A DNA stretch of 34,165 nt from Acrasis kona (lineage: Eukaryota; Heterolobosea; Eutetramitea; Acrasida; Acrasidae). The translations under genes and the position numbers were made by a program. The stretch covers positions 1 through 34,165 of the forward strand of contig JAOPGA020000152.1 of assembly GCA_026419775.2 (NCBI GenBank), given 5' to 3'. Each line of letters begins with the position of its first letter. Positions within the stretch are counted from its first letter, which is position 1. The notes beneath the pieces were generated by a model. It ran no database searches, was not told the DNA's origin, and was given only the letters and a program-made list of their open reading frames with translations. Below, piece after piece: positions 8,730-33,799 of this stretch.

Positions 8730-11224
8730 TTATAAATAAAAATATAAAAATGATCCATAGTTAGATGAGAGGGCTGTTGTATAGTGCTGGTATTCATTTA
8801 CAATCTCTTGTACATTATGACTTTGACATTTGTTATAATTTGTTAATGCTGCTTTGAACTTAGTAATCAGAGCATACTTGACTGAACCAAAGGAATTCAT
8901 ACTTTGCACATGTGGTGGGGATTGTGGTGGCTTGTGCATGTTAAAGTACAAATTGCAGTCCTCAATCATTAATTTAACGGCTTCATCAACAGCTTCGTCA
9001 GGATATTTAATTGACACCGAGTGTTCTTTAAAGTCAACTGCACTCTGATCAATCAAATGTTTCACAATTGCAGCATTTATCAACGTTCTTGGACCACATG
9101 ATGTTGCATCAGGTTGGGAGCAAACATTGATTTTATGGCAACAGATTTCAAAACCGCCCTCTCCATTAGTCTCTAAGTCGTACCTCTGCTTGCAATATCT
9201 TACGACACGCTGAAGATTGGACAAGGCAGCCAAATCAATTGAATTAATTGTATACAAATGTATACATTTCTTAGACTTGTTTGCTTCAGCTAAGACCAAT
9301 GAATAGTGATTGGGCGTCATTACAAAGAACATGATTCGATCAAATTGTATTGACCCATCCTTATCTGGAGTGAATAAGCGTAGGAGTTGAATGTCAGGGA
9401 ACTGTGGTGTAATGTTTTCCCTAATGAATTTGTTGCAATTATTTACATTAAATACAAGGGTCTATCAAAGTTACAAAAGGCAATAAAAGAAACTCACTTT
9501 CGATTTAATCTGCCATGCTGACGGGAACCAAATTTCTGCTATTCCATTGAAGATTCCACATCCCATGCATTTATCCACACTGATTGAGGACATTTCTTCA
9601 GTCTTCAACTTGAGCGGTCCAACTTCATCTACTTTAACAGGCACTCCATCATCTTCCACAGTATTTGGCACCTGTCTATCACTCTTGTCTTTATGCCTCT
9701 TTAATAATGTTTTCGACCTCACAAATGATTTATTTTGATCCTTTAAAATCTTGATTATATCATTGATTTCATACTCAAGATTAAGCTTAGGAAGGTTTTG
9801 AGTGTCCTCAAATGTGAAAGGTACATCTTAAAATATGTAAATACAACGCAAGAATTATAAACTTAGCGGCATCTATTTTCGAAGGTTTGGTAAGAGATGG
9901 TGGAGTGGGTGTTTCTGCTTTTTGTGGTTGATTACAATTTGACCATATCGGCTTGTAAAGTCTGCCATCATCAGAGTCCTCTTCAAGAATTTTGATCATC
10001 ATAGGCATGTGATCAATTAAACGTTTTGTCGGCAGAGAAAGATTCAACACATAAGGATATTTTACAGCAAATTCATATAAGTGAATTTTTCTNTAAAACG
10101 TACGACTAGAGCAGCCTGCAATCGTATGTTAGAGCTCATTGAGTTTGAGAGCTCCTAAATCACTTTCACCCAAATCCAACGCCTTTTTAGCTTGAGGGCT
10201 AACAAATTTAATGTCGTTCTTCTCAATGTAGTCTTGATAGCATTTTCTCCATGAATGGAAGAACNAAATTGTAGCCTTAAGCTTGCTGCTGGCTATAGGA
10301 TTTGGGTCTGACAAATCTTTGGATGAACCAATGTTTTTGATAGCATTGTAATATGCACCAATCATTATGTCAGATTGAAGATTGCATTTGGTGGCGACTT
10401 GGTGTTGGGCACATATAGTGATGTATCCATATTTTTTTTTTAGAAAACAGGGATAAGCCTGAAAGTTTATTGGTAGTTTTACAACCCCCGTCAATAGTTA
10501 TTGATGAGTTACCTTACACAAAAAATTATATATACAAATCACCGGGAAGGTGATTGCTCGTGTTCACAGTTTGCCTTGTAAACACATCGAGCGGTCCAAA
10601 TGGAACGGGAATAGTGATGTATCCATAGGCTAAAATATCATAACTGCTGTCGTTTGACTCTATTGTGCTTATTTTTGATAGTAAATCTTTGGCATTATAA
10701 GCATCAGCAGTAGATTTTTGAACTGGCGCGGTAATTTGAGTCTGCAGTATTTTTATAGCCTCCTGTCTTTCGTCGATGTGGTTGTCTCCTTCTCCAGAGT
10801 TGCTGTCTTTCTCTGCCTCGTCCTCTTTCTTGGCTCCATCCTCATCGTTGTTGTTCTCCTCCTCCTCTTCTGTAATCTTTGTAGATTTTTTCTTCAAAGA
10901 TTTCTTTTCAAGATTTTGAATGTAATCTACAAAAGAGAAAACACCGTTTCCAATTTTCTCATCGCAGTCACCAAGTTTTCGAAGCTCACTTATTGCAGTT
11001 GTATCTTCATCATCAATTGCACAGTATGCTCCCTGAAGCATAACTTTGCTTATCCTGTCGAGATCTTTTTTACTTGTGCGGTTTACAAGATATGATACAA
11101 CAACCTCTGTTGAGCTGGGCCCGCATTCTTCTGTTACTTTTGTAAGTACGGCAGTGATTGTTTTGGAAAGCATAGAAATACTATCTTTCTTTGATTGGAT
11201 AGATGTCTTGTTAACGGTTGCCAT
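8730..11224 (-). CDS. Multi-exon gene with C-terminal Ulp1-type protease domain
   Basis: The start at 11224 (ATACAATGGCA) opens a helical N-terminus, then a Lys/Glu/Asp-rich linker (about residues 105-150). The exon is interrupted by a 179-bp retrocopy (10432-10610) and resumes at YGYITICAQHQ. Intron 1 is 10169-10116 (54 nt, CTCTAAC branch motif). Exon 2 begins GCSSRTF and reads YEFAVKYPYVLNL. The next junction (about 9850-9800) cannot be resolved in frame. The exon ending at 9498 joins the last exon (from 9461) over a 36-nt intron. The last exon shows NHYSLVLAE (catalytic His) and CSQPDATSCGP (Gln and Cys six apart); the usual DS is NS, so Asp is replaced by Asn. Family role: cleaving ubiquitin-like modifiers. 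The insertion has probably inactivated the gene; Ns lie at 10093 and 10265. Confidence 0.7.
9462..9497 (-). other. 36-nt intron in the protease gene
   Basis: The donor is GTGAGT, the acceptor TTGATAG, and the branch-like motif GTAAC. It joins WQIKSK to TLVFNVNNC in phase 0. Confidence 0.75.
10116..10169 (-). other. 54-nt intron in the protease gene
   Basis: The donor is GTGAAAG, the acceptor GATTGCAG, and the branch motif CTCTAAC. It removes a stop and keeps phase 1. Confidence 0.7.
10432..10610 (-). mobile_element. Polyadenylated retrocopy with 17-bp target duplication
   Basis: Seventeen bases, ATAGTGATGTATCCATA, occur at 10415-10431 and 10611-10627. On the minus strand the 179-bp insert ends with AATAAA, about 25 bases later CTGTTTTCT, then a run of nine A next to the target duplication. 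It is therefore a reverse-transcribed transcript end, presumably mobilised by a LINE. It splits the codons for YGYITI in the protease gene. Most of it matches 485-594 plus 1196-1230; the first 30 bases (minus-strand sense) match nothing else seen in the window. Confidence 0.82.
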
Positions 11225-13784: not shown

Positions 13785-14795
13785 ATGCAACGAATGTTGT
13801 CAATAGACTTTGGAAAGGCAATGACTGTTCGAGGACTCTCAACAAATTTTGGTTTGGGAAAAGGCAGAGTTAAAACAAGAAGAAAGAAGCTGATTTGTAG
13901 GAACAAATATGAAGAACTTGATGATGAAGCACTTAAGAACCTTACGAATGTCTATAAGGATGACTTCAATCAAATACTCGACCATTTAACTCGGACTTGG
14001 ACAGACTTTGAACAATCTAAAATACCAAAGTATGGGTTGATCTTTTTATTCTACTAACAGTCAAAGAAATGTTCCACTAGAAGATGGATTAGTAATCTTT
14101 TTCAACTGGGTTGCTCATTATAATAATGAAAAAACTATGATGGACACTTTTGGGGTTTCATCTTTTACCATCTCTGTTTATTACGGGAGTATATAAACCA
14201 CCTAATAGATTACATGCAATCATTTGTACCTAACAAACCTGATGCAAATATTCCTACATCACAGTACTCAGAACTAATCTTCTTAGTCATTGATGGAACT
14301 ATTCATCCAATTCAAAAACCAACGTATGAGCAACATCTCTTTTACAGAGGCGATAAGAAATGCCATTTTACACAAACGCAGTTAGTAGCCGATATGAACG
14401 GTAAAATTATTGCATTTGATACATTTATTCTTGGCCACATTCATGACTCCACAGCTGCTAGAAAAAATGAACATTTTGAAAATGTTGCAGGTGAGAGCTT
14501 TATATTAGGTGATCCTGGTTTCAATGGTGTTGATTATGTTGTTGCAGGATTAAAGAAAACTTCATGCACAACTGCCGAGCATTAAGAATTCTTTAAAGTG
14601 ACAAGAAATGAACAAAGGATTGTAGAGCACGTTAATCAACGTTTCAAGTGTTTCAAAGCAATCTCAACGGAAACAATTTTTCACCATAATTTGAAACTAC
14701 AAACAGGCTTAATCATTATTAGCATCAGACTATATAATTTGAGACTTGGGAAAGGAGATTTCGCTCCAAGAGATTCATACTGCGGAAAAGAGTAA
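13785..14795 (+). pseudogene. Harbinger/IS5-like DDE transposase (DDE_Tnp_4 type), broken
   Basis: The N-terminal part has a helix-rich region (KYEELDDEALKNLTNVYKDD). After a frame change near 14050, WVAHYNNEKTMMDTFGVSS resembles the helix-turn-helix of the family; another frame change near 14180 leads to the catalytic part. The triad is visible: Asp in FLVIDGTIHP, Asp in ILGDPGFNGVD and Glu in RIVEHVNQRFKCF. A TAA at 14583-14585 interrupts the frame between the second Asp and the Glu, and the coding sequence continues in the same frame to 14795. At least two frameshifts and one stop make it inactive. I found no convincing terminal repeats. Confidence 0.7.
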
Positions 14796-15605: not shown

Positions 15606-16900
15606 AAATCCCTTAAAATGCTCGAATATACGTATTCGGAGTTTTCGACCCTCGCTTTTCAACTTCATCTTAGGGTCAGTGAGAGTTGATTCTTAAATTC
15701 CCAATACGATTATCTGAGCTTCTTAAGCATAATGGCTCATGTAAAAATCAAAAATAAAAAAGTTTGGGTTTGTGTCAAAATCAAATTTTTAATTTCTTTT
15801 TGTGGAACATAGGTTAAGACGCTCAAATATTCGTATCGGGAGTTGTCGTTGTTGAAGTTTCAACAATACCTTAGAATCAAGGAAAGTCGATTTGTTAAAA
15901 AGCTTAATTATACGTATCTGGAATTTTCGTCCCTAGTTTTTCTACTTCACCTATGGGTCACAGAAGTCGATTCTTAAACTCCCGATACGGATATTTGATC
16001 ATTTTAAGCGATCTAGCTTCTAAATAAATCGAAAATCGTTAAGCTTGGGATTGGGACTATTTTTTATTTTTTATTTTTTCTAGAGCAATCATGCATAAAA
16101 AGGTCAAATATACGTATCGGAGTTTACTTTCAAAGTGATTAAAGTGAAGTTAAACTCCGAATACGTATATTTAAGCATTCTGACCTATATTAATTAAAAT
16201 ATAAAATCGGTTTTGTCACAAACCCAAACTTTTTGATTTTTGGTATTTTCATGAGATATTATGCTTAAGAAGCTCAGATATTCATATCGGGAATTTAAGA
16301 ATCAACTCTCACTGACTCATAGGTGAAGTTGAAAAGCGAGGGACGAAAACTCCGAATACGTATATTCGAGCAAATTGATATATATTTTTCGAGAAAAAAA
16401 TTAAAATTTAATTTCGAATTAAACCAAAGTTTTTCGATTTTTAATTTTTTCTTATGCTAGTACGCTTAATAAGCTCAAATATTCATATCGAGAATATTAA
16501 AATTGACCTATGTTAACTTATGCTGAAGTCGAAAAGCTAATAATATAAACTCTGTATACGCATATTTGAGCATTCTGACCTATGTTACTCAAGAAAAAAA
16601 TTAAAAATCAGTTCCGACATAAACCCATTATTAACGATTTTTGATTTTTTTTCTGAGCTATTATGCTTAAAAAGCTCAAATATTCGTATCGGGAATTTAT
16701 GAATCTACCCTCACTGACTCTAAGGTGAAGTTGAAAAGCTAGCAACAGAAACTCCAGATACGCATATTAAAGCATTATGACTTATATTCCATCAGGAAAA
16801 AATCAAAAATTAATTTCGACCCAATCCCAAGTTATTTGTAATGTTGCTCAAGATGCTTCAAAATTCATATAAGGAATAATGACCCAATCGCTTTTTATCA
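15606..16900. repeat. Satellite-like array, about 200-bp period, inverted halves
   Basis: On the right (about 16260, 16465, 16670) a unit recurs every 200-205 bases in the same orientation: a start like AAGCTCAAATATTCGTATCGG, a middle GGTGAAGTTGAAAAGC, then CTCCGAATACGTATATT. On the left (about 15610-16020) the same unit runs in the opposite orientation. The switch lies near 16090-16170, where two copies of the outer motif face each other across about 30 bases. Each unit also has inverted ends (CTCAAATATTCGTATC against GAATACGTATATTTGAG). Units are diverged. There is no coding potential. Confidence 0.8.
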
Positions 16901-19310: not shown

Positions 19311-19499
19311 GCGGATATCTGAAATGTACAAATAATTATCTGAGATGTACAACAAGGTATACAGGTCACCGAATAACTTATGTGAGGACCATTTTTTAAT
19401 ATGACTAACACAGTTTTGTACGCTCTTTCGAATGGTATGTGCCGCATCTCAAGATTTTCATGATCGCATTCCATCGGAATTTAATCATGATCATCAAAA
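19311..19499 (+). repeat. Left long terminal inverted repeat
   Basis: It matches the reverse complement of 26738-26948 apart from scattered substitutions and a 20-bp tandem duplication (CTGAAATGTACAAA-type unit) present only on the right. Confidence 0.88.
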
Positions 19500-19635
19500 A
19501 TGAATTTGTTGAGAATACCTCTATTATTCAAGTACATTACACCTAGAGTAGTGTTGAATGAAAATCAAAGTGCAAATTGACATTTAATTAAATTTTGACA
19601 TTAATTCGTTCGAAATTAATCGTTTACACATCACT

Positions 19636-20190
19636 ATGTCACATTCTCAAATTCCAACTTCACAATCGCTTTTGGACAAGGTTAATGCTCTCGGAGCGAA
19701 GGGTGGTGTTCTCCTCAAGAACAGCATCGGTTGTATGGACCTTGAGGAACTGTGTGACAAGATGAAGACTAGGAAGGTCCGCTTTCCTTTCTTCTACGAC
19801 GCGTTACCATCTGATGTTGACCGTCGCAATGCAATTCTCCCACTGTTGTGGAAGAGTTACGNTAAACCTCCCATTCTCCGGAAAATTTCAATGGAGGATG
19901 AAGAGGATGAGGATGAAGACGAGGAGTTGGATGATCGGTTGGAAGACGAGGAGGAGGCGGGTCTAAACGCTCCAGCGCCTGTCGATAACAATGAATCCAT
20001 TCCTCAGGGTGCGGTACCACCCGCGACAAGAATTGTTCGCGAGCATTTCCACTCATATAAACTGATGTTTTCAAAAGTAAAATTTACTAAAACCACCCAT
20101 GTAACGGGAAAGTTGTATATGATTGCAATAAATTGCAACGCGCTGAAACGCTGCATTTTGTCTAATACAGTCTTGTTAGTAGAAGGGTAA
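19636..20190 (+). CDS. Acidic protein of unknown function in the Mutator-like element
   Basis: The ATG at 19636 opens about 75 residues of ordered-looking sequence (LLDKVNALGAKGGVLLKNS, then KVRFPFFYDALPSDVDRRNA). A strongly acidic stretch follows (about residues 86-110) and a linker. The C-terminus from about 20034 comes from the 155-bp repeat also found inverted at 13536-13691, so the original C-terminus was probably replaced. An N at 19862 leaves residue 76 undefined. The first 16 codons and leader recur at 5415-5491. Its position beside the left terminus, divergent from the transposase, suggests an accessory gene of the element. I do not recognise the family. Confidence 0.5.
   Translation: MSHSQIPTSQSLLDKVNALGAKGGVLLKNSIGCMDLEELCDKMKTRKVRFPFFYDALPSDVDRRNAILPLLWKSYXKPPILRKISMEDEEDEDEDEELDDRLEDEEEAGLNAPAPVDNNESIPQGAVPPATRIVREHFHSYKLMFSKVKFTKTTHVTGKLYMIAINCNALKRCILSNTVLLVEG
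20034..20190 (+). repeat. 155-bp repeat, inverted relative to 13536-13691
   Basis: It forms the 3' end of the acidic-protein frame here, while the copy at 13536 stands alone. Near-identity suggests recent duplication. Confidence 0.8.
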
Positions 20191-20212: not shown

Positions 20213-21454
20213 TCATCCGGAGGACATTCCTAGCTTTGATTGTTCTATCAGCTCACGGATCTCCCTGCTCTTTGACTTTGGTGCCTTCGATGATAAATGT
20301 TCCACTTCAACATCATCAATTGATGCACGGCGAGAATGAGTTAGACGAAGGTCCGAGACGGTCTCACTGTTAATATCAACAGTAGTTGCGATACTGTCCT
20401 CTTGTTGATATCCAGTCAATGTTGTTGGTACTCTTCTTTTTCTCACAATGGTTGAAGAAATGATGGGTGTACTCTTGGTCTGTTTGAGGTTGCCTGGGGT
20501 ATTGTTGTCTATCTCTTTCAAACTAGAAGCTTTGTTAGGTCCATCACCAGCGTCATTGTCATTGTCATTGTCATCAATGATCACCTTCCTCATTCTTTGG
20601 TTTGCTCCAGTGTGCATAGCCACAGTATCCAAGGCGTCACAGTCCTCATGGGTTTCTTCGGGACCATCAGACAATGAATAATTGTCAAACCCACCAAGCT
20701 GTTCATCATCACGGTCATAACCGCTACCATTGTCCTCATCATCACTGTCTTGATGTTCCATCTCTAAAGCCCTCTCAAGAGCTCTTGTCCTTGTACATTG
20801 GGCGGGCTGCCTGGATGATGGCACTTGATCGGTTTCGATTTCAACAAGGCCTTCTCTTGCCTTCTTCATTCTATATTGCGGCTTCCGACCAGGCTTGAAC
20901 AACGCGTTTGTAATTGGAAGTGGAAGATGCGGTGCCTTNGTTAGTTTTGGATTGTTGTAGTGGTGCAACCAGTTCAATAATTTAAAAGGATCATTCAATG
21001 GGAAATCAGACTTGGTATTGTTCTTGTATAAATGTAGAGCAATAGCGTAGATATGACCACACGCTTTTCCGCCTTGGTAGTTATAGTCAGGACAATCACA
21101 CATTACAAGTAAGGAGAATATTGTATATGTGTAGTCTGATGGCTCTGAATACAAATAGAACACGCCGGCTCTTGATGTGGATGTTCTCAAACTATAAGCT
21201 CCATTTGACTGAAGTTCCTTCAAAATGTCCTTTGCCTTTTCCAACCGCTTTGTCGCTTGTATCTCTGTCTTTGTTGCTCTATTGTGCTTTTCAAAGCGGA
21301 CTTCAAAAGACTTTTTGTCCATAAACTGGGTCACAAGGGTCACCGCATCATCTATCCTTGTTGTTTTAATTCCGTTGAGCAACGGTAATAAAATGGAACT
21401 CCATATTGTTCATCATGCCAGGTACTTTGAAAATAATTACCGACAAACATGGGG
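20213..21454 (-). pseudogene. Mutator-like transposase, C-terminal part with SWIM finger
   Basis: From 21454 the frame reads MFVGNYFQSTWHDEQYGVP then FYYRCS, a pattern typical of the region after the Mutator catalytic core (Y-x4-W...R). Near 21385 the frame shifts, continuing RIDDAVTLVTQFMDKKSF. A SWIM zinc finger follows (CDCPDYNYQGGKACGHIYA: C-x-C, then C-x-H), the hallmark C-terminal domain of Mutator-like transposases. The tail is long, acidic and Ser/Thr-rich, with stretches such as DSDDEDNGSGYDRDDE, ending at 20213. The upstream part lies across the nested insert at 26433-26580. An N lies at 20939. The gene is inactive because of the insertion, frameshift and missing catalytic core. Confidence 0.7.
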
Positions 21455-21737
21455 TTCTAATCGAAGAGATTTTTGGTATTTTTCAACCGGTTTTTCAAAA
21501 AAATTGCAAAACTGGTGTTAACAACCGGTTAGTTTTTTGTCTAAAAAGTGAAAAACACCACTAGTGAAATCGGTTGCATACACCGGTTTTAACAACTTGT
21601 GATAAAAACGAGGCATACGAACTGGTGCATTCAACCGGTTCAAGGTATAGGCTATGGATTCTAAAGCAAGGTAGTATACAAATAAAATTACATTAAATTG
21701 ATATCAAAATATTTTATTGTTCAAAGTCACTGCTGGA
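21455..21737. repeat. Left subterminal region with CCGGTT motifs
   Basis: AACCGG or CCGGTT occurs repeatedly (near 21494, 21533, 21592, 21645) in both orientations, often beside AACAAC. Clustered short motifs near transposon ends often bind the transposase. The right end has only a few similar motifs (26368 CCGGTA, 26395 CGGTT). Confidence 0.5.
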
Positions 21738-22856
21738 TTAATCATCCTTCTTCTTCTTGTGCTCTGCAAGTATCTTGGCCAATGTCACTTCATCAATGCC
21801 AGCATTTGTGAGTAAATCTTCAATTTTACTGGACTTTGCCTTCGACTTCCTGACCTTAGTTGTCTTCAGGGTTTCTATAAAGTGTTAATGTTAAAACATG
21901 TTTATACTTACCTGTCAACAAGTGTTGAAGCTCCTTGTCAAATGGCTTATCAACTTGGTTCTTGCACTGAACTAAGTGGGACAGCTCATCTCTTAATTGA
22001 GCAGTGACGTGGTTTCTCAAGACATCGCACCCAAGTTTTCCTGTTGTGGTCTTGCCATCTTTCTCCATACCGTCCAGCTTGGTTTGCACTGTTGCTGCCA
22101 CAATGCTTTTGACATTCTTGTTAAGCGCAGTGGTGATGTTGTATATGCCTCCCCATTCATTAAGTAGGTGTAATACACCAATAGCAATCTTTGGTATAGC
22201 TTCAGTGACTACGTTGCCCATAATTTTCGACAACTCCTCTTTGGTAACTACAAGGGCTACAATGTTGGTTTGTTTATAAATTCAGAAGTTTACCTTTAGG
22301 TCCTGAGTTCTCCACCATATCAACTTGCTCCTCAGTCCGTGCCCTCTTCTTGGATTGCTCTATACCAAATTCTAAATCTACTTCGGCTGGCGTCTTCCTC
22401 TTTTTAGTCTTCTCTACTTCACTGGGCTTGTTGTCTGTTCCTTGGTAATTAAGTACGCATGAAAAGTTAGACCTTACCAATTTTAGGCTCATATTGTGGA
22501 CCTGTTAAAAGATCACCATCTTCAATTGAATCATGAACCCAATCACTTGTTTTAAGGATTACTTCCTCCCCTATGCAGGTGAACCAAGTACTCCTCTTAC
22601 CTTGCTCGTAGATGCAATAGTTGCATTCCTTTGAGAGAGCTTTGCGAACTTCTCCACCTGCGTCCTCCAATGCCCCCTTGACTGTTACGGATACATCTTT
22701 GTCTGCTACATCTACAAAAAATATTAGTCCAGAGAATATTATTGAGCGTTTAGGCTTAGCTCTAGATGCAGGCTTTAGAGTGCTGGTCTTCGGTTCATAA
22801 GTATAGCAATTGTTTTCTGATAAATAAATCCACATCCATTTGTATCCAAAAGACAT
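21738..22856 (-). CDS. BRCT-domain protein, four exons
   Basis: Exons 22856-22478, 22440-22294, 22256-21912 and 21874-21738 are separated by three introns of exactly 37 nt (GTAAGG, GTAAAC and GTAAGT donors). The spliced frame is 335 residues without a stop. Residues about 38-122 form a BRCT domain: RSIIFSGLIFFVDV, the Gly-Gly turn ALEDAGGEVRKAL, then the conserved Trp in SDWVHDSIEDGDLLTG. BRCT domains bind phosphoproteins or DNA ends in repair complexes. A basic nuclear-type stretch follows (KTKKRKTPAE, KKRAR), then a helical part (exon 3) and a Lys-rich C-terminus (ILAEHKKKKDD). An upstream exon is possible. It is cargo or an accessory gene of the nested transposon; a role in transposition or target choice is speculation. 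Confidence 0.75.
21875..21911 (-). other. 37-nt intron 3 of the BRCT gene
   Basis: The donor is GTAAGT and the acceptor TTTATAG, with ATTAAC as a possible branch motif. Confidence 0.75.
22257..22293 (-). other. 37-nt intron 2 of the BRCT gene
   Basis: The donor is GTAAAC and the acceptor ATTGTAG. A second acceptor nine bases downstream (CTTGTAG) is also in frame, so the protein could differ by three residues. Confidence 0.7.
22441..22477 (-). other. 37-nt intron 1 of the BRCT gene
   Basis: The donor is GTAAGG and the acceptor ACCAAG, with a CTAAC branch motif close to the donor. Phase 1 is preserved. Confidence 0.7.
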
Positions 22857-22970
22857 ATTAAAGAATCTGTTCACTGTGGTATTTCTTGAGTTGACCAAAT
22901 CAACTATGAACAAGAAAAGGAAGCGCTAACTTTATCAAATGCGCCGTAGTACGTATTGTCAACCAAAACG

Positions 22971-24566
22971 ATGCAACTAGTTGCTATTGTTGCATTTATT
23001 CGAATTGCATTCATACTTTTCTTTTTATTCAAGATTAAAATATTATGCTGTGAGAGCAGGGCGAATAGGAGAGGAAGAGTAAAGATGAGGGCACTTTTTA
23101 AAAAAATCCAAAAGCACCAAGAAATTATGCGACAATTTCGAAGTTCAATTCATTCGATTATCAACATATCCGTCGCATCCAACAANTTTATTCTAGCCGT
23201 ATCCTCTTTCTCAACTCTGCAAGCATCAACTTTGGATCATACAATATCCACTACAATGGGTGTTGGTGAGGAAGATTTTTACTTAACGTACAACAGCACA
23301 CCAATACGATTTGATAGAAGACTTGATGCGTATGGCATATCAAATGGCTCAACATTGATTTTCAACATGAGATTAAAGGGCGGGGTTAAGAAGAGGAAAT
23401 TAGAAGAGTGCGGAGATGCGAATTCGAACAAAACAACATCCATTACCAACTCCATACAAGACCAAGAAAAAGAAAATATTAGATTTTTGAATATTGAGAA
23501 GTGGTCGGATGAGAAAGCAACTTTAATTGACAAAAAAGATTGTGAGGATGTAAATGAAGAGGACAGATTTGTTTTTGCAAAAGATTTGATGAGGGATGCC
23601 ACGCATAGATTTCTGTCTCCTTTCAATGTGTTGGAATGTAAAAGAGATGTTTTGGGGAATTCTGAAAAATGCGCTGGTTTGATTGTCAAGATTGAAGGTC
23701 AGCAACAATACATTTGCGTAAAGTGCAAATTAGAAACTAGAGTATGCCCGCAATGCCATTCATTCCATCACCATACTGTTCACAATCTCAACAAGCATAT
23801 TGATGGTACAAGACACCAAGGATTGTATAATAATATCAACATTGAACTACAGAAGGATATTATTTTGCTTGATGATGAGAGTCTTACAACAAGTGCGATT
23901 CTTGCAGCGTTGCTACTTGGACATATCCGCTATACCAAGTGCATACAAAATAATCAAATTCTAGAACTTGTTAAGGAGCCACAAAACACCACACCTCCTT
24001 CTAAAGTATGTGAATCAGAGTATAGCAAACTTTATTCAATTCTTTCAAAACCATCAATTGACAAGTACGACAATTTGAATCACGACATCTACAACAAGGC
24101 AGTTGAAGCTGCATTTTCCAATATATATACCAGAATCAAAGCACCGCAATCTAATGGAATACAGCCATATAAATCAGTGCAAGAAGGAATGAGTCATCGT
24201 TACTGTCGTGAAGGAGGTTTATCGCAAGATGGTATTTCAGAATTGAGATCATACTTGAAAGTTGCTGGAGTCTTGGAAACAAAGATCAAAAAAAAGGTTT
24301 CTACTTTACAGAATGATGCGCTCCAATTGCAAAGAAAATATATAGAAGAGAAGCAGAAGTCTTTAGAAATATGGGACAAGAACACAACCTTGTCTGATAA
24401 AATAAGACTTGAACAAAAAATTGAGCTACTCAAGATACAAGTATTTGAAGAAAAGCTCAAGTGCACTGAACTTCAAATCTCTCATCTGCAATCCTCTAAT
24501 CTAGTTCAAGACATTCGACACTATACTGATATAGAATCAAACCCTTTATTTGTTAAAATGATCTGA
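22971..24566 (+). CDS. Ubiquitin-like fusion protein with Cys/His cluster and coiled coil
   Basis: From the first ATG (22971) the frame gives 531 residues, no introns. Residues 3-27 are hydrophobic (possible membrane anchor), but ATG 39 (MRALFKK) may be the real start. Residues about 64-138 match ubiquitin's C-terminal half in order: EEDFYLTYNSTPIRFDRRLD parallels the LIFAGKQLEDGRTL region, AYGISNGSTLIFNMRLKGG parallels YNIQKESTLHLVLRLRGG. It ends in Gly-Gly (137-138), directly followed by a basic VKKRKLEE, as in ubiquitin precursors cut after Gly-Gly. Lysines equivalent to K48 and K63 are absent. Residues 249-282 hold a Cys/His cluster (CVKCKLETRVCPQCHSFHHH, then further His), probably zinc-binding. 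Residues about 430-515 are a coiled coil. An N at 23186 leaves residue 72 undefined. Confidence 0.7.
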   Translation: MQLVAIVAFIRIAFILFFLFKIKILCCESRANRRGRVKMRALFKKIQKHQEIMRQFRSSIHSIINISVASNXFILAVSSFSTLQASTLDHTISTTMGVGEEDFYLTYNSTPIRFDRRLDAYGISNGSTLIFNMRLKGGVKKRKLEECGDANSNKTTSITNSIQDQEKENIRFLNIEKWSDEKATLIDKKDCEDVNEEDRFVFAKDLMRDATHRFLSPFNVLECKRDVLGNSEKCAGLIVKIEGQQQYICVKCKLETRVCPQCHSFHHHTVHNLNKHIDGTRHQGLYNNINIELQKDIILLDDESLTTSAILAALLLGHIRYTKCIQNNQILELVKEPQNTTPPSKVCESEYSKLYSILSKPSIDKYDNLNHDIYNKAVEAAFSNIYTRIKAPQSNGIQPYKSVQEGMSHRYCREGGLSQDGISELRSYLKVAGVLETKIKKKVSTLQNDALQLQRKYIEEKQKSLEIWDKNTTLSDKIRLEQKIELLKIQVFEEKLKCTELQISHLQSSNLVQDIRHYTDIESNPLFVKMI

Positions 24567-24666
24567 AAACCAGTTAACAAGAAGTAACAACGCCCCATCA
24601 GAACAATGTTTATCAATTAGTTCTTGATAATATTTTGTTTCTACAACATGACTAACTGTTTTTGAT

Positions 24667-25836
24667 TCATCTGGAATAAATCGTAGTACTTATATGCACA
24701 TCAACAACTTCCAGCGCTTTGTAGTTATCATTGACTTTCACATATGTGTTTTTCTCCTTCCTGTAAACTGTCTCTGGATAGTTATATCTCAGTGTGTCAA
24801 GGATTTCTGTCATCTTGGTTGCATATTCCACTCCAGTTGCAGTCGATTGACCAGCTAGCTTCTTCATTGGCACATGATAATGTTCAAATGGCTTTGTATG
24901 ATATGTACATGGTGGTCCAAATTTAATAGCTTCATCAAACATGTGTTGAACAGTATGAAATTTAATATGGTTGGCGGCATCATCACCAAATAATTTTTTA
25001 TATGCAGTTCCATAGCGCATATACACTGTTTTAGCAAACATTATATCTTCTTTACTGAGATTAGAGTTGTATAATATGCGATAATATAGAAGATGATCCA
25101 TGTAGCATTGAAAGTGTGTAGACGATAGCATAGAATCAAATATCAAAGGTAATATTCTAATAAAGTCGGACCAGTCATCTCCATCCCAATTACCACGGTC
25201 ACTAAACAAACTCATTTTTAAGGCACTTTTTAATTTTAGTGCCTGCATTTTCTTATCAATGGTGACCTCATTTAACATCTTCTCCTGCACCATCAATTCA
25301 ATGTGGTGCTTTGAGAAGTTGCTAAGAACTTCAATGTGAAAAATGTCTCCTGGACTACACTCATGTATATCAAAGGCATATGGATATGGGGATAACTCCC
25401 AAAAACTATTGAAGTCACAACGAATAGACACTGTTTTTGCTACTGCTTTATATGCTTTGTTATTAGTGATGCTATTAAGAATCTTGATTTGTGATGCAGT
25501 TTTACTAACAGATCTCATGTCATCAACCAAATCAGTACAATGATATTCTGTCTTTTTTCTATAACACCGACAACAACCTGTTGTGGCCATATAACCCTGC
25601 ACACCACAAGCCTCATTATGCTCAGGCTGATTAGCTATAACTAAATGTAAAATAGGACGGACAAGAACATGCTTCTTTAATAATGCATGCCAGACAACTA
25701 TACCGCTGTAAAGATTCTTTAAATCACGCACTGCTCCTAGCGCAAATTCATGTAATGTGAGATCTTTGTTACCAACACTATATAGAATCTTTGATCTCAA
25801 TTTCCCTCTATATTTATAACTAGCATTAAATAGGTC
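24667..25836 (-). CDS. tnp2/Plavaka-like transposase, central and C-terminal part
   Basis: The frame opens at 25836 after a TAA, without an early ATG, so an upstream exon or N-terminus is missing. It shows the family's order: HLVIANQPEHNEACGVQGYM followed by CCRCYRKK (zinc-binding pair after the D-x-PE motif, here N-x-PE); a long helical region; HIKFHTVQHMFDEAIKFGPP (the H-x-H...GPP segment); then EHYHVPMKKLAGQS, parallel to the E-x-KH motif. The expected Asp of the D-x-PE motif reads Asn, which may be inactivating. It ends at 24667, earlier than the 17341-19263 relative, so the C-terminal domain is absent. It is the only transposase inside the nested element and presumably moved it. Confidence 0.65.
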   Translation of the reverse strand, partial: DLFNASYKYRGKLRSKILYSVGNKDLTLHEFALGAVRDLKNLYSGIVVWHALLKKHVLVRPILHLVIANQPEHNEACGVQGYMATTGCCRCYRKKTEYHCTDLVDDMRSVSKTASQIKILNSITNNKAYKAVAKTVSIRCDFNSFWELSPYPYAFDIHECSPGDIFHIEVLSNFSKHHIELMVQEKMLNEVTIDKKMQALKLKSALKMSLFSDRGNWDGDDWSDFIRILPLIFDSMLSSTHFQCYMDHLLYYRILYNSNLSKEDIMFAKTVYMRYGTAYKKLFGDDAANHIKFHTVQHMFDEAIKFGPPCTYHTKPFEHYHVPMKKLAGQSTATGVEYATKMTEILDTLRYNYPETVYRKEKNTYVKVNDNYKALEVVDVHISTTIYSR

Positions 25837-26227
25837 TTAATTATGTAAATTAGAGTATGAGTTGTATGCCAGAAAGAATAAGTGGATTGCTGCAGATGAT
25901 AAACTCATTAAAGTACACTCCCCTCCAAGTTCTTTTAAAAGAAATAGAACAAAAGTCACTATTGGTTGCGATGTGGCATTCAGTAGCAATATTAATTCTT
26001 TTGGTAAGCTCCAAAGTGTTGAATTTTGGGTTTTTGAATCTGGTGTTGTAGTTCCAGTGGCATTTGTAGATCAATATAAGTGCGATGGAGTTTTATCAGC
26101 AAATATGTGCCCTGTTGTAAGTACTGATACAATTGTTAAAGAAAACTGCTGCATTCATGGCAATGACCTAACTTTATCTCTTGTAGTTGAGAGAGGTAAT
26201 AAGGAGTATGTCTGTATATTTTATTAA
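25837..26227 (+). CDS. Unknown small protein or exon in the nested element
   Basis: The frame opens near 25840 (no ATG), reads YARKNKWIAADDKLIKVHS, then a beta-rich part (VEFWVFESGVVVPVAFVDQY) and ends at 26227 (KEYVCIFY). It is divergent from the transposase and separated by only a few bases. I do not recognise it. It could be the last exon of a gene whose start was lost, or one end of a gene truncated by the element's formation. Confidence 0.35.
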
Positions 26228-26432
26228 AAATCATTGTGGTTAATTTTATATTATTGTTGCTTTTATTGTGAATTTTAACTGTTGACCTTGGTGTTCAATG
26301 TCTTTATGCTATGTTGAAATCGATACTTGTTGCGGTGAAAAGTGGTAATTTTAACCAGTATTTTTGGAACCGGTATTTTTCAACCATTTATTTCGGTTGA
26401 TTTCACCATACCAAAAATTCCTCTAATTAGAA

Positions 26433-26580
26433 GGTATTTGACTTCTAGTTCATCAAAATATTCGAGGTATTGCTCTTCGCTTTTGCATGCAACCATACTT
26501 CTTACAACACAAACAATTCAAGAGGCCAAATACCAAATCAATGGAAAGAAGATAAACTTTAGTAATTTCACTTTTGATAC
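26433..26580 (-). pseudogene. Mutator-like transposase, upstream fragment
   Basis: On the minus strand KLLKFIFFPLIWYLAS, an in-frame TGA, then SMVACKSEEQYLEYF leads to DELEVKY at the edge of the nested element. The frame continues at 21454 on the other side. The catalytic acidic residues that should lie further upstream are not present, so most of the N-terminal half was lost before or after the insertion. Confidence 0.6.
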
Positions 26581-26737
26581 GATTTAAAGACACAAAAGGC
26601 ACTAATATTTATGATAGCAGTTTAAATACATTCATTATTTATTTGGAACAGACTGATAACTCAATAAGACAATAAAACACAATGCTTATCACTTTATTGC
26701 GCTGAGTGAATGTAATTTAACATAATAAAAAAATATT

Positions 26738-26948
26738 AATTTTGATGATCAAGATTAAATTCCGATGGAATGCGATCATGAAAATCTTGAGATGCGGCAC
26801 ATACCATTCGAAAGAGCGTACAAAATTGTGTTAGTCATATTAAAAAATGGTCCTCACATAAGTTATTTGGTGACCTGTATACCTTGTTGTATATTTCAGA
26901 TAATTATTTGTACATTTCAGAAAACCTTTGTACATTTCAGATATCCGC
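26738..26948 (-). repeat. Right long terminal inverted repeat
   Basis: It is the inverted partner of 19311-19499. Near its outer end the motif TACATTTCAGA is duplicated in tandem with a 20-bp period. It abuts the 9-mer TTGTCGACT. Confidence 0.88.
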
Positions 26949-27523: not shown

Positions 27524-30500
27524 CTACTGATTTCTCTTGGCTGATTTGGTGGCGGCGGCAGTGGGATTACATTTCGCTAGGGAAATGTGGTCTGTCCATA
27601 TGGCTTTATTGCATAGAATAATGTGGTCAAGAATTCTTGCTCTTGTGTTCTTCTTTGCAACTGAGGGTCTGCCATATATCTGAATGTAGTTGTTGATGGT
27701 TGGAGGTATGAGACAATGTGAGACATATATAGATTCGGGGCCAAATCTGATTTTCTTTGCTAATGCTGTTGTTGAGGTCTTGCCTAGGCGTAGGTGGGAT
27801 GATAGGAGGTTTATTAGACCCGCGTATTTGCGGGAGATAAGCGCATTATTTCTGTAGCAGCGTTCGGTAACATGAGTTTGGTTGGGTCTGAATATTTTGC
27901 ATCGGCATCCTTTGGCTTCACGTGGATTTAATAATCTGTAGGCTCTACTTTTTAGAACGAAACCTCTTAGGTTATGTGGGTCAGAGATATGTTTATGGTT
28001 TAAATATTGGTCAATCTTGACGTGTTCTTTTAAAATAAAATAATCCGGTCTTTCTTCTCTGAGTTTGGATTCCTTAAGATGGTTAAAACGAGTTGCGCAT
28101 TTCTTCCTCAAAGTGTGCTCGATAATTCTGTTGTTGTGGTCAATGAATAAGGTGTTCGGGAGGAACGGCCATCTGTATGATAAAAGTGTTGCCATTGGAT
28201 TGTCGGTTGCTAGATTGGCTTTAGCGTCTACAAGATTGTTTAACCTCGATGCAAGGTCGAATTTTTTGGTGTGGGCTTTGACATGTTTGAGAACAGCATT
28301 AGATCTTGTTATTTCTTTCACAATTTCTTTAATCAGTGAGTGATAGGGTATTTTCATCCATTTATGTGATGTGGTTGGTAGGTTGAGCGCGTAGTGTATG
28401 ATGTTAATCGCTGAAAGAGAGTCGGTGTGTATGGTTGTTTCCGGGAGGAGTGTTTTGATAAGAGCAATGAGTATCGCTTGAAGTTCGGCGTGTAGAATTT
28501 CTAGATGTAGAGCTAGTGACAGAGGTGATGCCATCTGATGCAGCCCATCCTGAACTACGTAATTTGTTGTTGATTTTAAGAGAACCGTCCGTGGCTACGT
28601 TGGTCAATGACCATTTGTTGTCGTCAGTGTGGTTTATGAAGGTCATTAACGTTAGTGTGGCAGATTCACCGAGGATTAGTGGGTTTAGTATGTTCGCTTT
28701 CATGGTAGTCATCGTAGTTTCTCTAATTTCAATGTAAATATCTTCATTTATGTTGGGTATCTTATTCTTGAGTATAGTTAAGGGTGTGAAGCAGAGATGT
28801 GAGATGAGGTCCAGGTTTACTATTGTGGGATTGCTGAGTACTTTTTTGATTATAGGTAGGTCTGGGCTTTCGTAGATATTCCATAAGGGTGACCAGGATG
28901 CGAAAGATTTTGAGTGTGTGTCTAGGGAGTTGATAAATGATTTAACTTTGACCGATGGTTTCTTTTTTATGGCCCGATAGATGTCTTCAATATTCCAATG
29001 TCTTATCCTAGATTTGTCTCTTCTGACTAATGAGAATTTCAGGTGGTTGGCAGCGTAATGGGCTGCTTTGAAGTATTGAGGAAAGTATGGGTTTTTGGTT
29101 GATTTAGGGAAGTTGGTTTTGGGTGTTGTTAGTGGACGCTTGATGGTGTTCTCTAATTCATCTAAAGTTAAGGTGGTTATGAGCTTGCAGTAGTGGTTAG
29201 GAGAGTTTAAGTTATTTATGATCAGAGCACATTTCTCGGTGTTCCAAATTTGTTCAATATCAGGAATGTTAAGTCCGTATTTCTTGCTTGTGATGATGTG
29301 CCTGGGGATGAAAGATAGATCTTCTCTTGAGTTGATTGTATCAAAGATGATTTTAGAAATTTTGCTTATAAGGGTATTCTTCTGGTCCTTGTTGCCAATT
29401 AGAGGGATATAGAATCTTATGATGGGGATAACATCAGTGGAGATCATCCTTGATATTTGGGGCAGACTGAGTTTGGAGTATTTGAGTTTGTGGCATTTCG
29501 AGGTGATTTTACTGAGGAGGGTTTGTTCGGTTTTTACAGTGCTCAATTCCTTATTTAAAAAGATTCCAAGGTGTATAAATTCGCCGTAGCCAATGTTTTG
29601 CACTGACAGTGATGTCTTGGCTGTGTTGATCACAAGTGGTTGGTTATTTGATTCAGAGGAGATGAATTCACATTTACTCTTAGAGACTTCGAGTGCGTTG
29701 CAGTCAAGGTATTCAATTACAGCATTGACACCAAGAGTTAGGTTTGCTATTGAGTTGGCGATTAGAAAAAGGTCGTCCATCCAGCCTGTGCCTGGGATAT
29801 ACACTGCTGTTTTTGTTGTGTTCCATTTGAATCCAAAGTTTGTTCGTTCTAGATATTGCATTAAGGGTTCCATAAAGTAACAAAAGAGGTCTGGTGAGAG
29901 AGAATCTCCTTGTCTTATGCCGAGTTTAAGATTAATTGCTTTTGTTAGGCCTCTCATAGTTCTTATGGTTACTTTCGATAGCTCGAATAGATGGTTTACG
30001 AATTTGATCACTTTAGGACCGAAACCTAGCCAGGGGAGGATGAGATCAAAGGAGTGGGAGGTGACAGTGTCGAAGGCTTTTACAATGTCGATTGTGGCTG
30101 CCGCGTACGGTGTGTTTGATCTATTGCCTTTAGCTAGAAGATTATTAATGTAGAAGCGGAGCATTCCATTCCCTCTAGCCCTCCACATTGCATTTTGGAA
30201 AGACTGTTGTTTAGGCATAATTTGGCATTCATTCTATTTCTGATAATGGAGGTGGTTAGTTTGTAGAGTACCGAAAGTAAACTAATCCCTCTATAATTGA
30301 CTAGTCTTCTCCTAGAGTCTTTTTTATGGAGTAAAATCATGATGGATTGATGGAGAGATTTGTGGATGTGATTTGATTTGATCATAGTAGAAATGATGGT
30401 CATGATGAACGATTGAACTACTTTGGGGCTGTTCTTGATTGTTAGACCTTGGAGTTGGTCTGGGCCGGGCGATTTTTTACCGTTAATGTGTTGGATTTGT

Positions 30501-32048
30501 GGGTCAAACTCATGAAGATTGACAGGCATGAAGATTTCATCGTCGTCAATAGGGTTATGTCCTGTTGGGGTGCATGTAATTTTTTGAAGTAGTTAACAGT
30601 TTCTCCTCTGTATCAAGAGCTATGGTCTTATCATCGCGTTCGATGACATCGGGGAAATTGGCTTTTGATTTGAAGATTACTCGTCTCAGGGTTTTGCTGT
30701 TCTCACCAAATCACTTGTCAAGATCTTTAGCCAGTTTTCTATCTTTGACAGTTTTGAAAGCTCTCTCGATTTCATTAATCTGGGTCCACATGGTTTTTCT
30801 TGATAGACGTAATACTGAAACCAGCTGCATTAGTCCTTGATCAAAGTCATCTTGGTTTTTATCAGGCATATTCTTTATTCAAATCGGTGACTTTTTAATG
30901 GTATCCATAAGTATTTCGATGTTTAGGTCTGGATGTTCATCTCTTTAGAGTTTATAGCATGTCCTTATGATAGAGCTCATCTCGTTAATTTTAATCATTT
31001 TTTCGTTGATCCCATGGAAGGTTTTTGGTTTCTTCTTAATGGGATTTCTCTGCGTTAGATTGATTTTGAGGTCTGAGGCTAGCTTTGTCGTGAGGAGTGA
31101 TGTTACTTCGGTGATAGCCGGTTCTAGTAAGTTCAATCTTGATTGAAGTGGAGAGTTGGAGTTCAGGAAGATGTCTTTGATTTCGGGGGGTAAATTGTCT
31201 AGCCAGAGTGGTGTGATCTTCTTTAGCGACGCTTGAATTAGTTTTGGGTCCTTACAGATAATTCTTGTAGGTGGGAGGGAGTCTTTGGCATGAATGTTCG
31301 AGTTGGTATTGATTGTGGCTAATACTGCTCTGTGGTCAGATGTGAAATTACAAGGATCTTCATCTACTTGATAGTTGTATGAGGATAGAAAGGAGTTGTA
31401 TAAGATGTAATCTATTCTTGATTTTGTTATTGAGCCATCTGTGTAGGAGAACCTAGTGCATGTGTTGGTTTCGAAAGGTTCAGCAGCATCGGATAAGTTG
31501 TTATCTGATATAAATTTTCTCAAATATTCATTTGGTTGTCTAATGGTGGTGCCCTGATGTTGATCTGAGTCAAGGACAGCGTTCAAGTCGCCTGAGATAA
31601 TTTTGTGGCCTTCTAGATTTTTTAGTAGTGCATTTAGATCAGAGTAGAAGCTGCCATGAGTTTTCTCGTCGGTTGGAGCATACAATGATACTAGAACATA
31701 GCTTTTTTTATCCAAGTCTTTGAATGTTACAAAAGTTATCCTGCCTAGAAGTGATTTAGGTAGGTGCACATCGTCTGATGAACTGATGATTGGAATATTT
31801 GGATTGCATATAATCGCGGTGCCTGCGTTCGGCATCTTTACTTTTCCATTTTTATGTGAAATTGCTTTAGAGTAGAAAGTAGGCCAATGATCGATGATTA
31901 CAGGACGGCTAAAGTTGCGTGTTTCTTGGATCAGGATGAAGTCGGGGCAGTGGGTGTTGAAAATGTTACGAACTGAGTTTATTTTTTTGGTGGCCAGTCC
32001 GTTGACATTAAAAGAACAAATTTTAAAACCACCATTTATTGGACTCAA
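27524..32048 (-). pseudogene. LINE ORF2: APE endonuclease, reverse transcriptase, RNase H
   Basis: APE-type endonuclease (32048-30945): NVNGLATKK, the metal-binding Glu in ILIQETRNF, SLYAPTDE, GDLNAVLD, RIDYIL and TSDHRAVLA are all present. Stops (TAA, TGA, TGA) and a frame change near 30560 follow. Reverse transcriptase: KSPGPDQLQG, LLHKKDSRRRLVNYRGISLL, a frame change near 30200, then AATIDIVKAFDTV (motif A), GIRQGDSLSPDLF (motif B) and GWMDDLFLI (the xxDD box). RNase H: NVATDGSLK, a frame change near 28510, HAELQAIL, IHTDSLSAI and LNNLVDAKAN. A Cys/His stretch (CRCKIFRPNQTHVTERC) precedes the end at 27524. ORF2 opens at a TTG that overlaps the ORF1 stop (TTGA, 32048-32045). Confidence 0.88.
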
Positions 32049-33614
32049 AACTCCTCGTCGTCTTCCATGTGGTCAACGACGGATAATGGTGATTTATCTA
32101 CTAGAGCTAAGTTGCTCATGTAGTTGGTTTCGTTCATCGTGAGTTGGTCGATGGATTGTTCAAGTTCTCTCAATCTTCTGATTATTGGAGGATAAGAAAA
32201 TCAATGCTCCTGTTGTTTGAGCGTTTTGCCTTAAATTGTTCTCGTTGTTCGTCTTGATGGTGTCAAAAAGAATTGTATCTCTTCTATGCATTTCTTTGTA
32301 TACTGATCTCGTGAGGTTGTCTAATTTGCTGTGGATGCTTTTGATCTCCTTTGAGCCTTGTTGGATGTCTTCGGCGATTTTGTTGGATTTGTGATTTTTT
32401 TTCCATTTGGCAGGGTCTTTGTCGTTTGTGGCATCTCTGGTGAGCAACCAGTTGACAGTTCTATCTTTGAATTTAAACTTGTCACAGTTGTCTAAGAACG
32501 ACATTGTGTCTTCCCATGTGTCAAATGCGAATCTTACTCTATTTCTATGCTTAGGATCTTTGTAGGGCTTGATAAGCAGTTTTGTTGGATTATTGTCTGT
32601 GATTCTGTTTGCTAGTTTGACTAGGCCTTGTGATGAGAGATAACCGTCAGGGATGTTCATTCCCGTGAATTCATTGTGGTCGAGGGGTGGCTTATCGGTG
32701 CACATGCTAATCGTTAATTTGTGTGTTATTAAATCAGCGTCTTGGTACAAAACATTTGCGCCTTTAAGAATGTCTAGTGATTCAATCTCGGTGATGGTAA
32801 AAAAGAACGCCGATATGTTTTGGTTCCTTATATATTTAGCGTCAGTAATTAGTGCTATTAAGGATATTGCGTCTGTGAGGTCATTGCGTACTGTATCTAA
32901 AGTGCTACTGTCTTTGGGTACGTTGAAGATTTTACCTGAAGCATATTTGTCTTCATCCAAATTGTCCATGAGGTACGACATTCTACCTTCATTGTTTGAG
33001 TTAGCGTGTGCATAGGCGGTCCTTAAGGCGCTTTATTCATTGAATGTCACGAAAACATAGGTAGGTGCATGACTGGGGGTTTGAGAATTGGGGAGTCTGA
33101 AATCGAAGTCTTCAACGTTAGCATTCATTATGGACGCTAATCTTTCTTTGTTGATGCAATGGGGGATGTTGGTGGGAAGAAACCTGACTATGGCTTCTAT
33201 TCTATTATGGTGCTTATCTGAGAGTGGGTCAATATTGTTCGCGTCTTCATCGGCAACCTCTTCATGCTCAATTCTTCTTCTTTTTTTTGGTGTGAGAGTG
33301 AGAGTTTGTTGGGTGCCTTCAGTGTATTCACGCCATCTTGATTTAGCGCCATACAGATTTATGAATGTGGCAAATGGTAGGCACAAGGTGTGGGTGGTGT
33401 TATTGGATTCTTTTCTAGGTTTGATAATTTTTTTTACAATTGTTGAATTACATCTTTCTTTAGAACTAGATTCTAAGATGTTTGTGGCTTTGAACGTGTG
33501 AACATCGTGATCAGTGAAGGGCCATTGGTCTTTTGGGGTTTCAGTGAGGGTGTTAATGAGGTCTGCGTCGATTGGTGTCTCTTGTCTGGTTAAGTTTTCT
33601 TGATGAGTGTTCAT
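32045..33614 (-). pseudogene. LINE ORF1 with one stop and one frameshift
   Basis: The ATG at 33614 opens 193 residues with a basic stretch (TPKKRRRIEHEE) and a short RNA-binding-like end (PTYVFVTFNE). A single TAA (33035-33033) interrupts the frame, which continues for 17 codons to a further ATG (32981) and on to 32160 (FKFKDRTVNWLLTRD, then a coiled-coil region around SKLDNLTRSVYKEM). A one-base shift near 32190 gives RELEQSIDQLTMNE and an acidic C-terminus, DHMEDDEEF, ending at 32045. The expected role is RNA-binding chaperone of the retrotransposition complex, inferred from its position. Confidence 0.75.
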
Positions 33615-33799
33615 TGTCTATATTAAATATGTTCTTGTCCTGGGTAAGTCTCTGGGTGTGCAAAGGGCTTCTAATGTCGACTCGCTGATGCGAAAGGTCT
33701 CTTTTTTGTGAAAAGTGAGTTAACGCAACGGTTAGTTAACGACCCAATGTATTGACGCCAAGCTAATCTCCGCAGTTGACTGGTTTTACAAAAAAGACG
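33615..33799 (-). promoter_or_regulatory. LINE 5' leader, probable internal promoter region
   Basis: This is the 185 bases between the target duplication and ORF1. LINEs carry an internal promoter here. The direct repeat-like GTTAACTAACCGTTGCGTTAAC is the only visible structure; no known promoter motif is recognised. Confidence 0.4.

Follow-up and report, generated by a model that had tools for sequence, protein, structure and literature searches.

The open reading frame (ORF) at positions 22971-24566 (+) of the window (the whole stretch of 34,165 nucleotides analysed here, contig C77 of a genome assembly of 37.35 Mb in 1021 contigs) codes for the N-terminal half of a transposase, that of a Plavaka/EnSpm-related DNA transposon of the cut-and-paste type. 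It encodes a ubiquitin-like domain (UBL) that ends in Gly-Gly, and this kept cutting signal suggests that host ubiquitin-cutting enzymes may ripen the transposase. A first-pass annotation had seen here a complete fusion precursor lying beside a tnp2-like transposase. Its inventory of the frame (an ORF with a UBL, Gly-Gly, a basic stretch, a Cys/His cluster and, by eye, a coiled-coil-like region) stands, whereas its picture of a free-standing neighbour of the transposase does not, as the frame is the head of the transposase itself, severed by an inversion in the window copy.

Organization of the transposase gene

The window frame is open throughout, and a chance ORF is ruled out by the at least 46 pieces of the genome that match its protein. 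The part belonging to the transposase spans 22971-24551 (+); the stop codon at 24564-24566 falls inside an inverted block. All on the plus strand, the protein begins with a hydrophobic segment (residues 4-22, 22980-23036), a possible membrane anchor which was absent from the first-pass annotation, and continues with the UBL (about residues 64-138, 23160-23384), which ends in MRLKGG and contains a single N in the DNA, read as X at residue 72. The Gly-Gly (residues 137-138, 23379-23384), directly after which the cut is predicted, precedes a basic, NLS-like KKRK (residues 140-143, 23388-23399), a zinc-finger-like Cys/His cluster (about residues 221-282, 23631-23816) and a coiled-coil-like region (residues 436-507, 24276-24491), the latter recognised by eye rather than by a coiled-coil program.

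Compared with the 97%-identical copy on contig C268, two adjoining blocks of the window are flipped, 24544-24687 (-) and 24686-25841 (-), the second of which holds the transposase core with the C(2)C, H(3)H and E motifs; from 25843 onward the original direction is resumed, with the C-terminal part of the transposase at 25841-26227 (+). The arrangement of C268 is also that of C88, C543, C949 and C781, as far as each extends. The minus-strand ORF at 24667-25836, previously taken for a tnp2-like neighbour, therefore belongs to this gene as its inverted central part, which leaves the gene disrupted in the window copy. Within the flipped part, one acidic motif position is unlike C268 and C178, and the inversion itself may be a misassembly.

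In C268, the UBL, the Cys/His cluster, the coiled coil and a Plavaka-related transposase of the DDE type form one ORF of at least 1049 amino acids, which runs without a stop to the end of the contig. UBL and transposase follow in the same order in C178 (913 amino acids, one stop, then 294 amino acids) and share one frame in C845 (822 amino acids) and C610 (642 amino acids). A free-standing precursor beside a transposase is rejected on this ground. The order of domains in the other copies is a hydrophobic N-terminus (in three of the six subfamilies described below), a basic segment, the UBL ending in R-x-x-G-G, an NLS-like basic cluster, the Cys/His cluster, a variable linker or coiled coil, and the DDE-type core.

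The Plavaka profile PF18759 (cut-off 26.3) is matched with 28.7 bits by C268 and with 26.3 by C178 when scored together with its neighbours; the C178 protein alone reaches 23.4 bits, under the cut-off, and exceeds that of Pfam ubiquitin. No match at E<=0.1 was found in the C610, C147 and C845 proteins, nor in the window piece. Genome-wide, four of nine matches lie over the cut-off (C268, C178, C949 and C996); the one in C949, situated between two separated pieces of UBL-transposase, seems to be part of another element, like that of C996. Plavaka (CMCT clade) transposases have a C(2)C and an H(3-4)H motif placed after the second D and ahead of the last E; C268 and C178 agree with this, their motifs running D, GCCxCY, HIKFH, KPFEHYH (based on patterns, not on structure). 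Four other transposases of the genome (C998, C502, C623 and C856) are 24-28% matches to the core. The frames of C998, C502 and C856 have a Cys-rich start and no visible UBL (that of C623 starts too late to tell), and none of the Pfam ubiquitin matches at E<=0.01 in the genome lies on these four contigs, so that the UBL seems, from these sequences, to have been added in one branch of the transposases.

The element, its ends and its accompanying genes

The placement of the UBL inside a mobile element, already noted in the first-pass annotation, is confirmed by a unit of 4978 bp (21455-26432) with ends TTCTAAT..ATTAGAA, flanked by a 2-bp duplication of the target site (GG, 21453-21454 and 26433-26434). 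Its left terminal inverted repeat is TTCTAATCGAAGAGATTTTTGGTAT (21455-21479, +) and its right one lies at 26408-26432 (-), the ends reading TTCTAATCGAAGAG.. and its near-complement. C743 and C169 carry the sequence that surrounds the unit in the window but not the unit itself, and so provide empty sites. The element of C147 has TTCTAATCGGCGG.. ends (TTCTAAT) and an AT duplication, and that of C178 has TTCTAAACGGAGA.. ends (TTCTAAA) and no clear duplication; a target-site duplication of 2 or 3 bp, as in Plavaka, is hence seen in two of three elements. Among the five longest inverted-repeat pairs listed per locus, a pair of TTCTAA-type ends was present at two of six loci (C178 and C147) and absent from C610, C845, C268 and C835. 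Single ends of this type occur in C268, C543, C829, C835, C949, C845 and C834.

The unit is inserted in an outer, apparently MULE-like element. This outer element is bounded by inverted repeats of 198 bp (19313-19510 and 26729-26926) and includes a SWIM-like ORF (20213-21409, Pfam E 0.021, under the cut-off); a further repeat at 19608-20036 has many occurrences in the genome.

A second, probably spliced gene of the element (21856-22925, -; exons assigned by eye) is divergent to the transposase. It comprises a BRCT exon at 22467-22922 (BRCT_2 E 6.3e-5, under the cut-off), an NLS-like exon within 22274-22504 and a conserved 'IPKIAIGVLHLLNEWGG' exon within 21856-22281, all on the minus strand. 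The same three-part divergent gene is found in C178, C829 and C147, where BRCT_2 is over the cut-off; in the C610 and C327 groups few ORFs were looked at. The C178 element in addition carries, inside its terminal inverted repeats and divergent to the transposase, a gene for a TET-like 2OG-Fe(II) oxygenase (PF20515 E 1.5e-38, L012:2618-3781, -). Such a TET/JBP-like gene within the element was seen in C178 only; the window ORFs submitted to Pfam gave none.

A ubiquitin-like domain

Residues 75-140 of the window ORF match ubiquitin-family proteins. Taken alone, the window copy gives weak matches (Pfam ubiquitin E 0.031, under the cut-off, residues 79-135; PDB best E 4e-5, ISG15 5e-4), and the ubiquitin-like identity assigned in the first-pass annotation becomes firm through profiles of its relatives: every one of the six subfamily UBLs reaches E<=0.1 against Pfam ubiquitin (best 8.6e-8), five of them also match Pfam Rad60-SLD at this threshold, and a profile of the six finds ISG15 (4e-14) and ubiquitin-S27a (4e-11 to 6e-11) in the PDB and is aligned to ubiquitin by hhalign with a probability of 97%. 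As judged from these profiles, this is a real ubiquitin-like domain. The C178 match covers positions 6-70 of the 72 of the Pfam profile and hence the whole domain, not a C-terminal half only as previously described; in the window copy, the whole UBL would start near residue 64. The profile searches favour a beta-grasp fold, and a single-sequence AlphaFold2 run on the window piece alone gave a poor model with a mean pLDDT of 42.7. C178 scores higher against the ubiquitin-eS31 fusion S27a (29.3 bits) than against single ubiquitin (21.7 bits), and the match to the fusion extends to residue 233, beyond the Gly-Gly at 225-226.

Read from the alignment, the position of Ile44 is T or S and that of K63 is N or D in all six subfamilies, and the position of K48 is K in C829 only; both lysine equivalents are missing in the window copy, as had been pointed out. 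The equivalent of Arg72 is invariant and that of Arg74 is not kept. The signalling surface of ubiquitin (Ile44 patch, K48/K63) is thus not preserved, and T or S at the Ile44 position throughout speaks against a role in ordinary ubiquitin signalling.

Conservation of the Gly-Gly tail

UBL frames are present at 15 of the 20 paralogue loci examined, which with the window makes 16 loci; four of these UBL sequences helped to build the search profile. By sequence they fall into at least six subfamilies (window/C268/C543; C178; C829/C815/C835; C845/C834/C147/C48; C610/C350/C751; C327/C542), between which the UBLs are 25-43% identical (mean 31%). The Gly-Gly is kept at 14 of the 16 loci, including C48, where it lies beyond a stop, and C835, where the frame shifts shortly past it; the two exceptions are C542, altered to LKCR, and C147, with a frame slip ahead of the Gly-Gly. 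Among the five paralogue loci devoid of a UBL frame, C361, C733 and C939 are relics reading LKGR, and the part that encodes the UBL is missing from C88 and C949. Four further contigs (C907, C183, C355 and C431) show partial matches only and stand outside the set of 16.

The tail R-x-x-G-G is invariant across the six subfamilies: of 76 ungapped columns in the UBL alignment, only five show no variation, among them three (R, G, G) of the last six (hypergeometric P 0.0027). A tail of the SUMO type, which is QTGG, is thereby rejected. The Gly-Gly is followed by A, V, V, S, G or S in the respective subfamilies, then within a few residues by a K/R cluster in all six, which includes one invariant Lys. 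The layout of a ubiquitin-like precursor, a C-terminal Gly-Gly succeeded by an extension, is accordingly found at 14 of 16 loci and in every subfamily. Loss of the Gly-Gly among homologues had been named beforehand as a result that would speak against the precursor reading; with this degree of conservation, the test did not refute it.

Selection was followed within groups of recent copies. The pooled pN/pS of the UBL is 0.73 (16 non-independent pairs); the window group has nonsynonymous changes and no synonymous ones, and in the C610 group pN/pS is about 0.27-0.44. To judge from these values, recent copies may be mostly decaying, with constraint visible between groups.

A hydrophobic N-terminus in three subfamilies

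A hydrophobic stretch (Kyte-Doolittle 2.6-3.0) followed by a run of Arg/Lys lies ahead of the UBL at 7 of the 16 loci, in three subfamilies, and starts with M-[QED]-L at six of the seven, C543 being the deviating one. Over its 23 aligned codons, second positions differ in a fraction of 0.26-0.30 and other positions in a fraction of 0.61-0.65, a pattern as expected for a coding sequence that maintains a hydrophobic helix; the basic stretch between this segment and the UBL has no such codon-position bias. We infer that the segment might insert into a membrane. The other three of the six subfamilies have no in-frame hydrophobic N-terminus, and in C751 a hydrophobic stretch lies upstream with stops in between.

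Possible processing by host deubiquitinases

We propose as the likeliest mechanism, though at somewhat less than even confidence and by analogy with cellular precursors, that the transposase is a precursor which host deubiquitinases would cut past the Gly-Gly to free a transposase with an NLS, the hydrophobic segment, where present, possibly serving as a membrane hold. A precursor cut in this way fits the retained R-x-x-G-G with an NLS behind it, the basic extension, and the small size of the residue next to the Gly-Gly. The transposase would be synthesised in precursor form; USP-type deubiquitinases of the host would recognise the UBL together with its RxxGG tail and cut after the Gly-Gly; and the freed protein, starting with a small residue and an NLS, would go to the nucleus and act on the TTCTAA-type ends, where the BRCT partner protein might act at the DNA break. 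Where the hydrophobic segment exists, a membrane may retain the precursor until it is cut, and cutting would then be the activation step. Precedents for such cutting are described in several studies: FUBI-eS30 is processed by USP36 (PMC8354635), Sde2 is cut at GG-K by Ubp5/Ubp15 (PMC9508853) and SDE2 is likewise a UBL precursor cut at its diglycine (PMC5131917). In USP36, Glu residues contact Arg72 and Arg74 of ubiquitin (PMC10611586).

Several observations argue against a cut precursor. With T or S at the Ile44 position and Arg74 lost, ordinary deubiquitinases might not bind; the absence of an in-frame hydrophobic N-terminus from half of the subfamilies weighs against a membrane tether; the missing codon-position bias of the basic stretch ahead of the UBL and the poor structure prediction count on the same side; and the UBL is under little purifying selection within very recent copies, although this is as expected if many copies are dead. 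The Gly-Gly might also persist by descent from ubiquitin, but decayed copies have lost it (C542; C361, C733 and C939). The fullest version of the proposal, a transposon lineage with a latent, membrane-held ubiquitin-fusion transposase that host deubiquitinases activate by a cut past the Gly-Gly and with a BRCT partner for the DNA break, appears to us unlikely as a whole.

Of the other explanations, the one that survives best, possible if on the unlikely side, is that the UBL is a permanent, uncut adaptor binding host factors such as the proteasome, DNA repair proteins or the SUMO/ubiquitin machinery, its Gly-Gly being a leftover. Integral UBLs are present in many eukaryotic proteins, and the BRCT module of the partner gene, of a DNA-repair type, as well as the Rad60-SLD matches of five of the six UBLs would suit such a role. 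Yet integral UBLs usually lose the Gly-Gly, while here the tail is the best conserved part of a domain in which most other positions differ. That the UBL is a functionless passenger, captured from a host ubiquitin-eS31 or similar gene with its Gly-Gly inherited, seems to us improbable: the succession of UBL, Gly-Gly and basic stretch does resemble ubiquitin-eS31, and the exclusively nonsynonymous changes in the window subfamily point the same way, but the frame has stayed open in subfamilies as far apart as 25% identity with the tail conserved, and pN is well under pS in the C610 group. Very improbable, and less likely than release of the transposase by deubiquitinases, is a true modifier attached after its release to host or transposon proteins to the benefit of the element, as the first-pass annotation had considered; the RxxGG with its invariant Arg72 equivalent is in its favour, as are the ISG15 chains, which lead the solved structures that have one matched stretch, but in five ORFs scanned from the C178 element Pfam names no E1, E2 or E3, the hydrophobic extension would stay on the released UBL in three subfamilies, and the Ile44 patch is not kept.

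Autoregulation, silencing or host factors usually keep transposases in check. If cutting by host deubiquitinases proves true, a ubiquitin-type precursor would be a new way of timing or placing the activity of a transposase, and, with the membrane-held form, a mobile element would let the ubiquitin system of its host govern when it transposes.

Relation to known systems

The element resembles Plavaka in PF18759 over the cut-off in C268 and C178, the C(2)C and H(3)H motifs and the 2-bp duplication, and the TET-like oxygenase gene of the C178 element adds a further resemblance to the Plavaka/EnSpm-like (CMCT clade) fungal DNA transposons whose ends and motifs are described by Kojima (2025; PMC12730594). 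In the main text of that paper, Plavaka ends are TGT..ACA or CATCA..TGATG, in contrast to TTCTAAT/TTCTAAA here, and we therefore do not file the element as PlavakaA or PlavakaB; the words ubiquitin, SUMO and zinc do not occur in that main text. The N-terminal UBL with its Gly-Gly and the BRCT partner gene further set our element apart from Plavaka. With this lineage, the Plavaka/EnSpm group gains a UBL and a BRCT module, together with a TET-like gene in one element.

The succession of ubiquitin-like domain, Gly-Gly and extension is shared with FUBI-eS30 (FAU) and ubiquitin-eS31 (RPS27A; compared here through S27a), which are ribosomal proteins and not transposases. In eS31, a zinc finger follows the ubiquitin-like domain; neither of the two fusions is known to have a hydrophobic N-terminus. 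ISG15, a vertebrate modifier, provides with its C-terminal domain the top profile score among chains with one matched stretch (55.3 bits), and shares with the window copy, as read from the alignment, a T at the Ile44 position and an aromatic residue two positions earlier; this likeness is probably convergent. Sde2 resembles the proposed precursor in being a nuclear protein whose UBL precursor is cut by deubiquitinases at a diglycine to yield the active form (PMC9508853, PMC5131917). Unlike the UBL element, Sde2 is not mobile DNA, and Sde2-C, whose first residue is Lys, is short-lived under the N-end rule, whereas a small residue follows the Gly-Gly here (PMC9508853).

Protein searches with the whole C178 protein and with its core region returned no relative; such searches recover proteins of similar length that have 5-residue words in common with the query, and can overlook distant relatives. 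In a control search with RPL3 of the same genome, 8000 candidates were scored and 1703 proteins, some from named eukaryotes, lay at E<=1e-150, showing that the database holds eukaryotes. A scan of viral contigs gave no relative of the UBL-transposase either, and the literature on transposons with ubiquitin-like or BRCT domains contained nothing similar by title or start of abstract among the matches listed, a set that mostly leaves subscription papers outside.

Other features of the window and the genome

The window contains two Ulp1-type (C48) protease-like ORFs on the minus strand, one at 2142-2813 (Pfam E 0.013, under the cut-off) and one at 8730-9461, recognised by eye and without a Pfam match. 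A fragment of a Harbinger-type transposase (DDE_Tnp_4, Pfam E 1.6e-13) lies at 14130-14585 (+), followed by a divergent tandem array (15780-16850) whose units, of roughly 200 bp each, are repeated in both direct and inverted orientation. Downstream of the element, an apparent non-LTR retrotransposon occupies 28404-33617 (-); its reverse transcriptase matches PF00078 (E 8.6e-13), and an ORF at 30945-32072 looks endonuclease-like by eye only. RPL3 of this genome (L045, contig C878) is 89-91% identical to two proteins of source jgi and at most 71% identical to the others among the 120 matches listed, so that the host seems to be a eukaryote with few sampled relatives. A search with the Chitin_synth_1N profile gave no match in the genome, its control being unable to respond. 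Elsewhere in the genome, we observed 19 tubulin-family matches, some of which are pieces of one gene, and in C610, just upstream of the UBL-transposase and on the opposite strand, a fragment of a tyrosine recombinase of the Phage-integrase type (PF00589 E 4e-9, L017:5645-6280, +).
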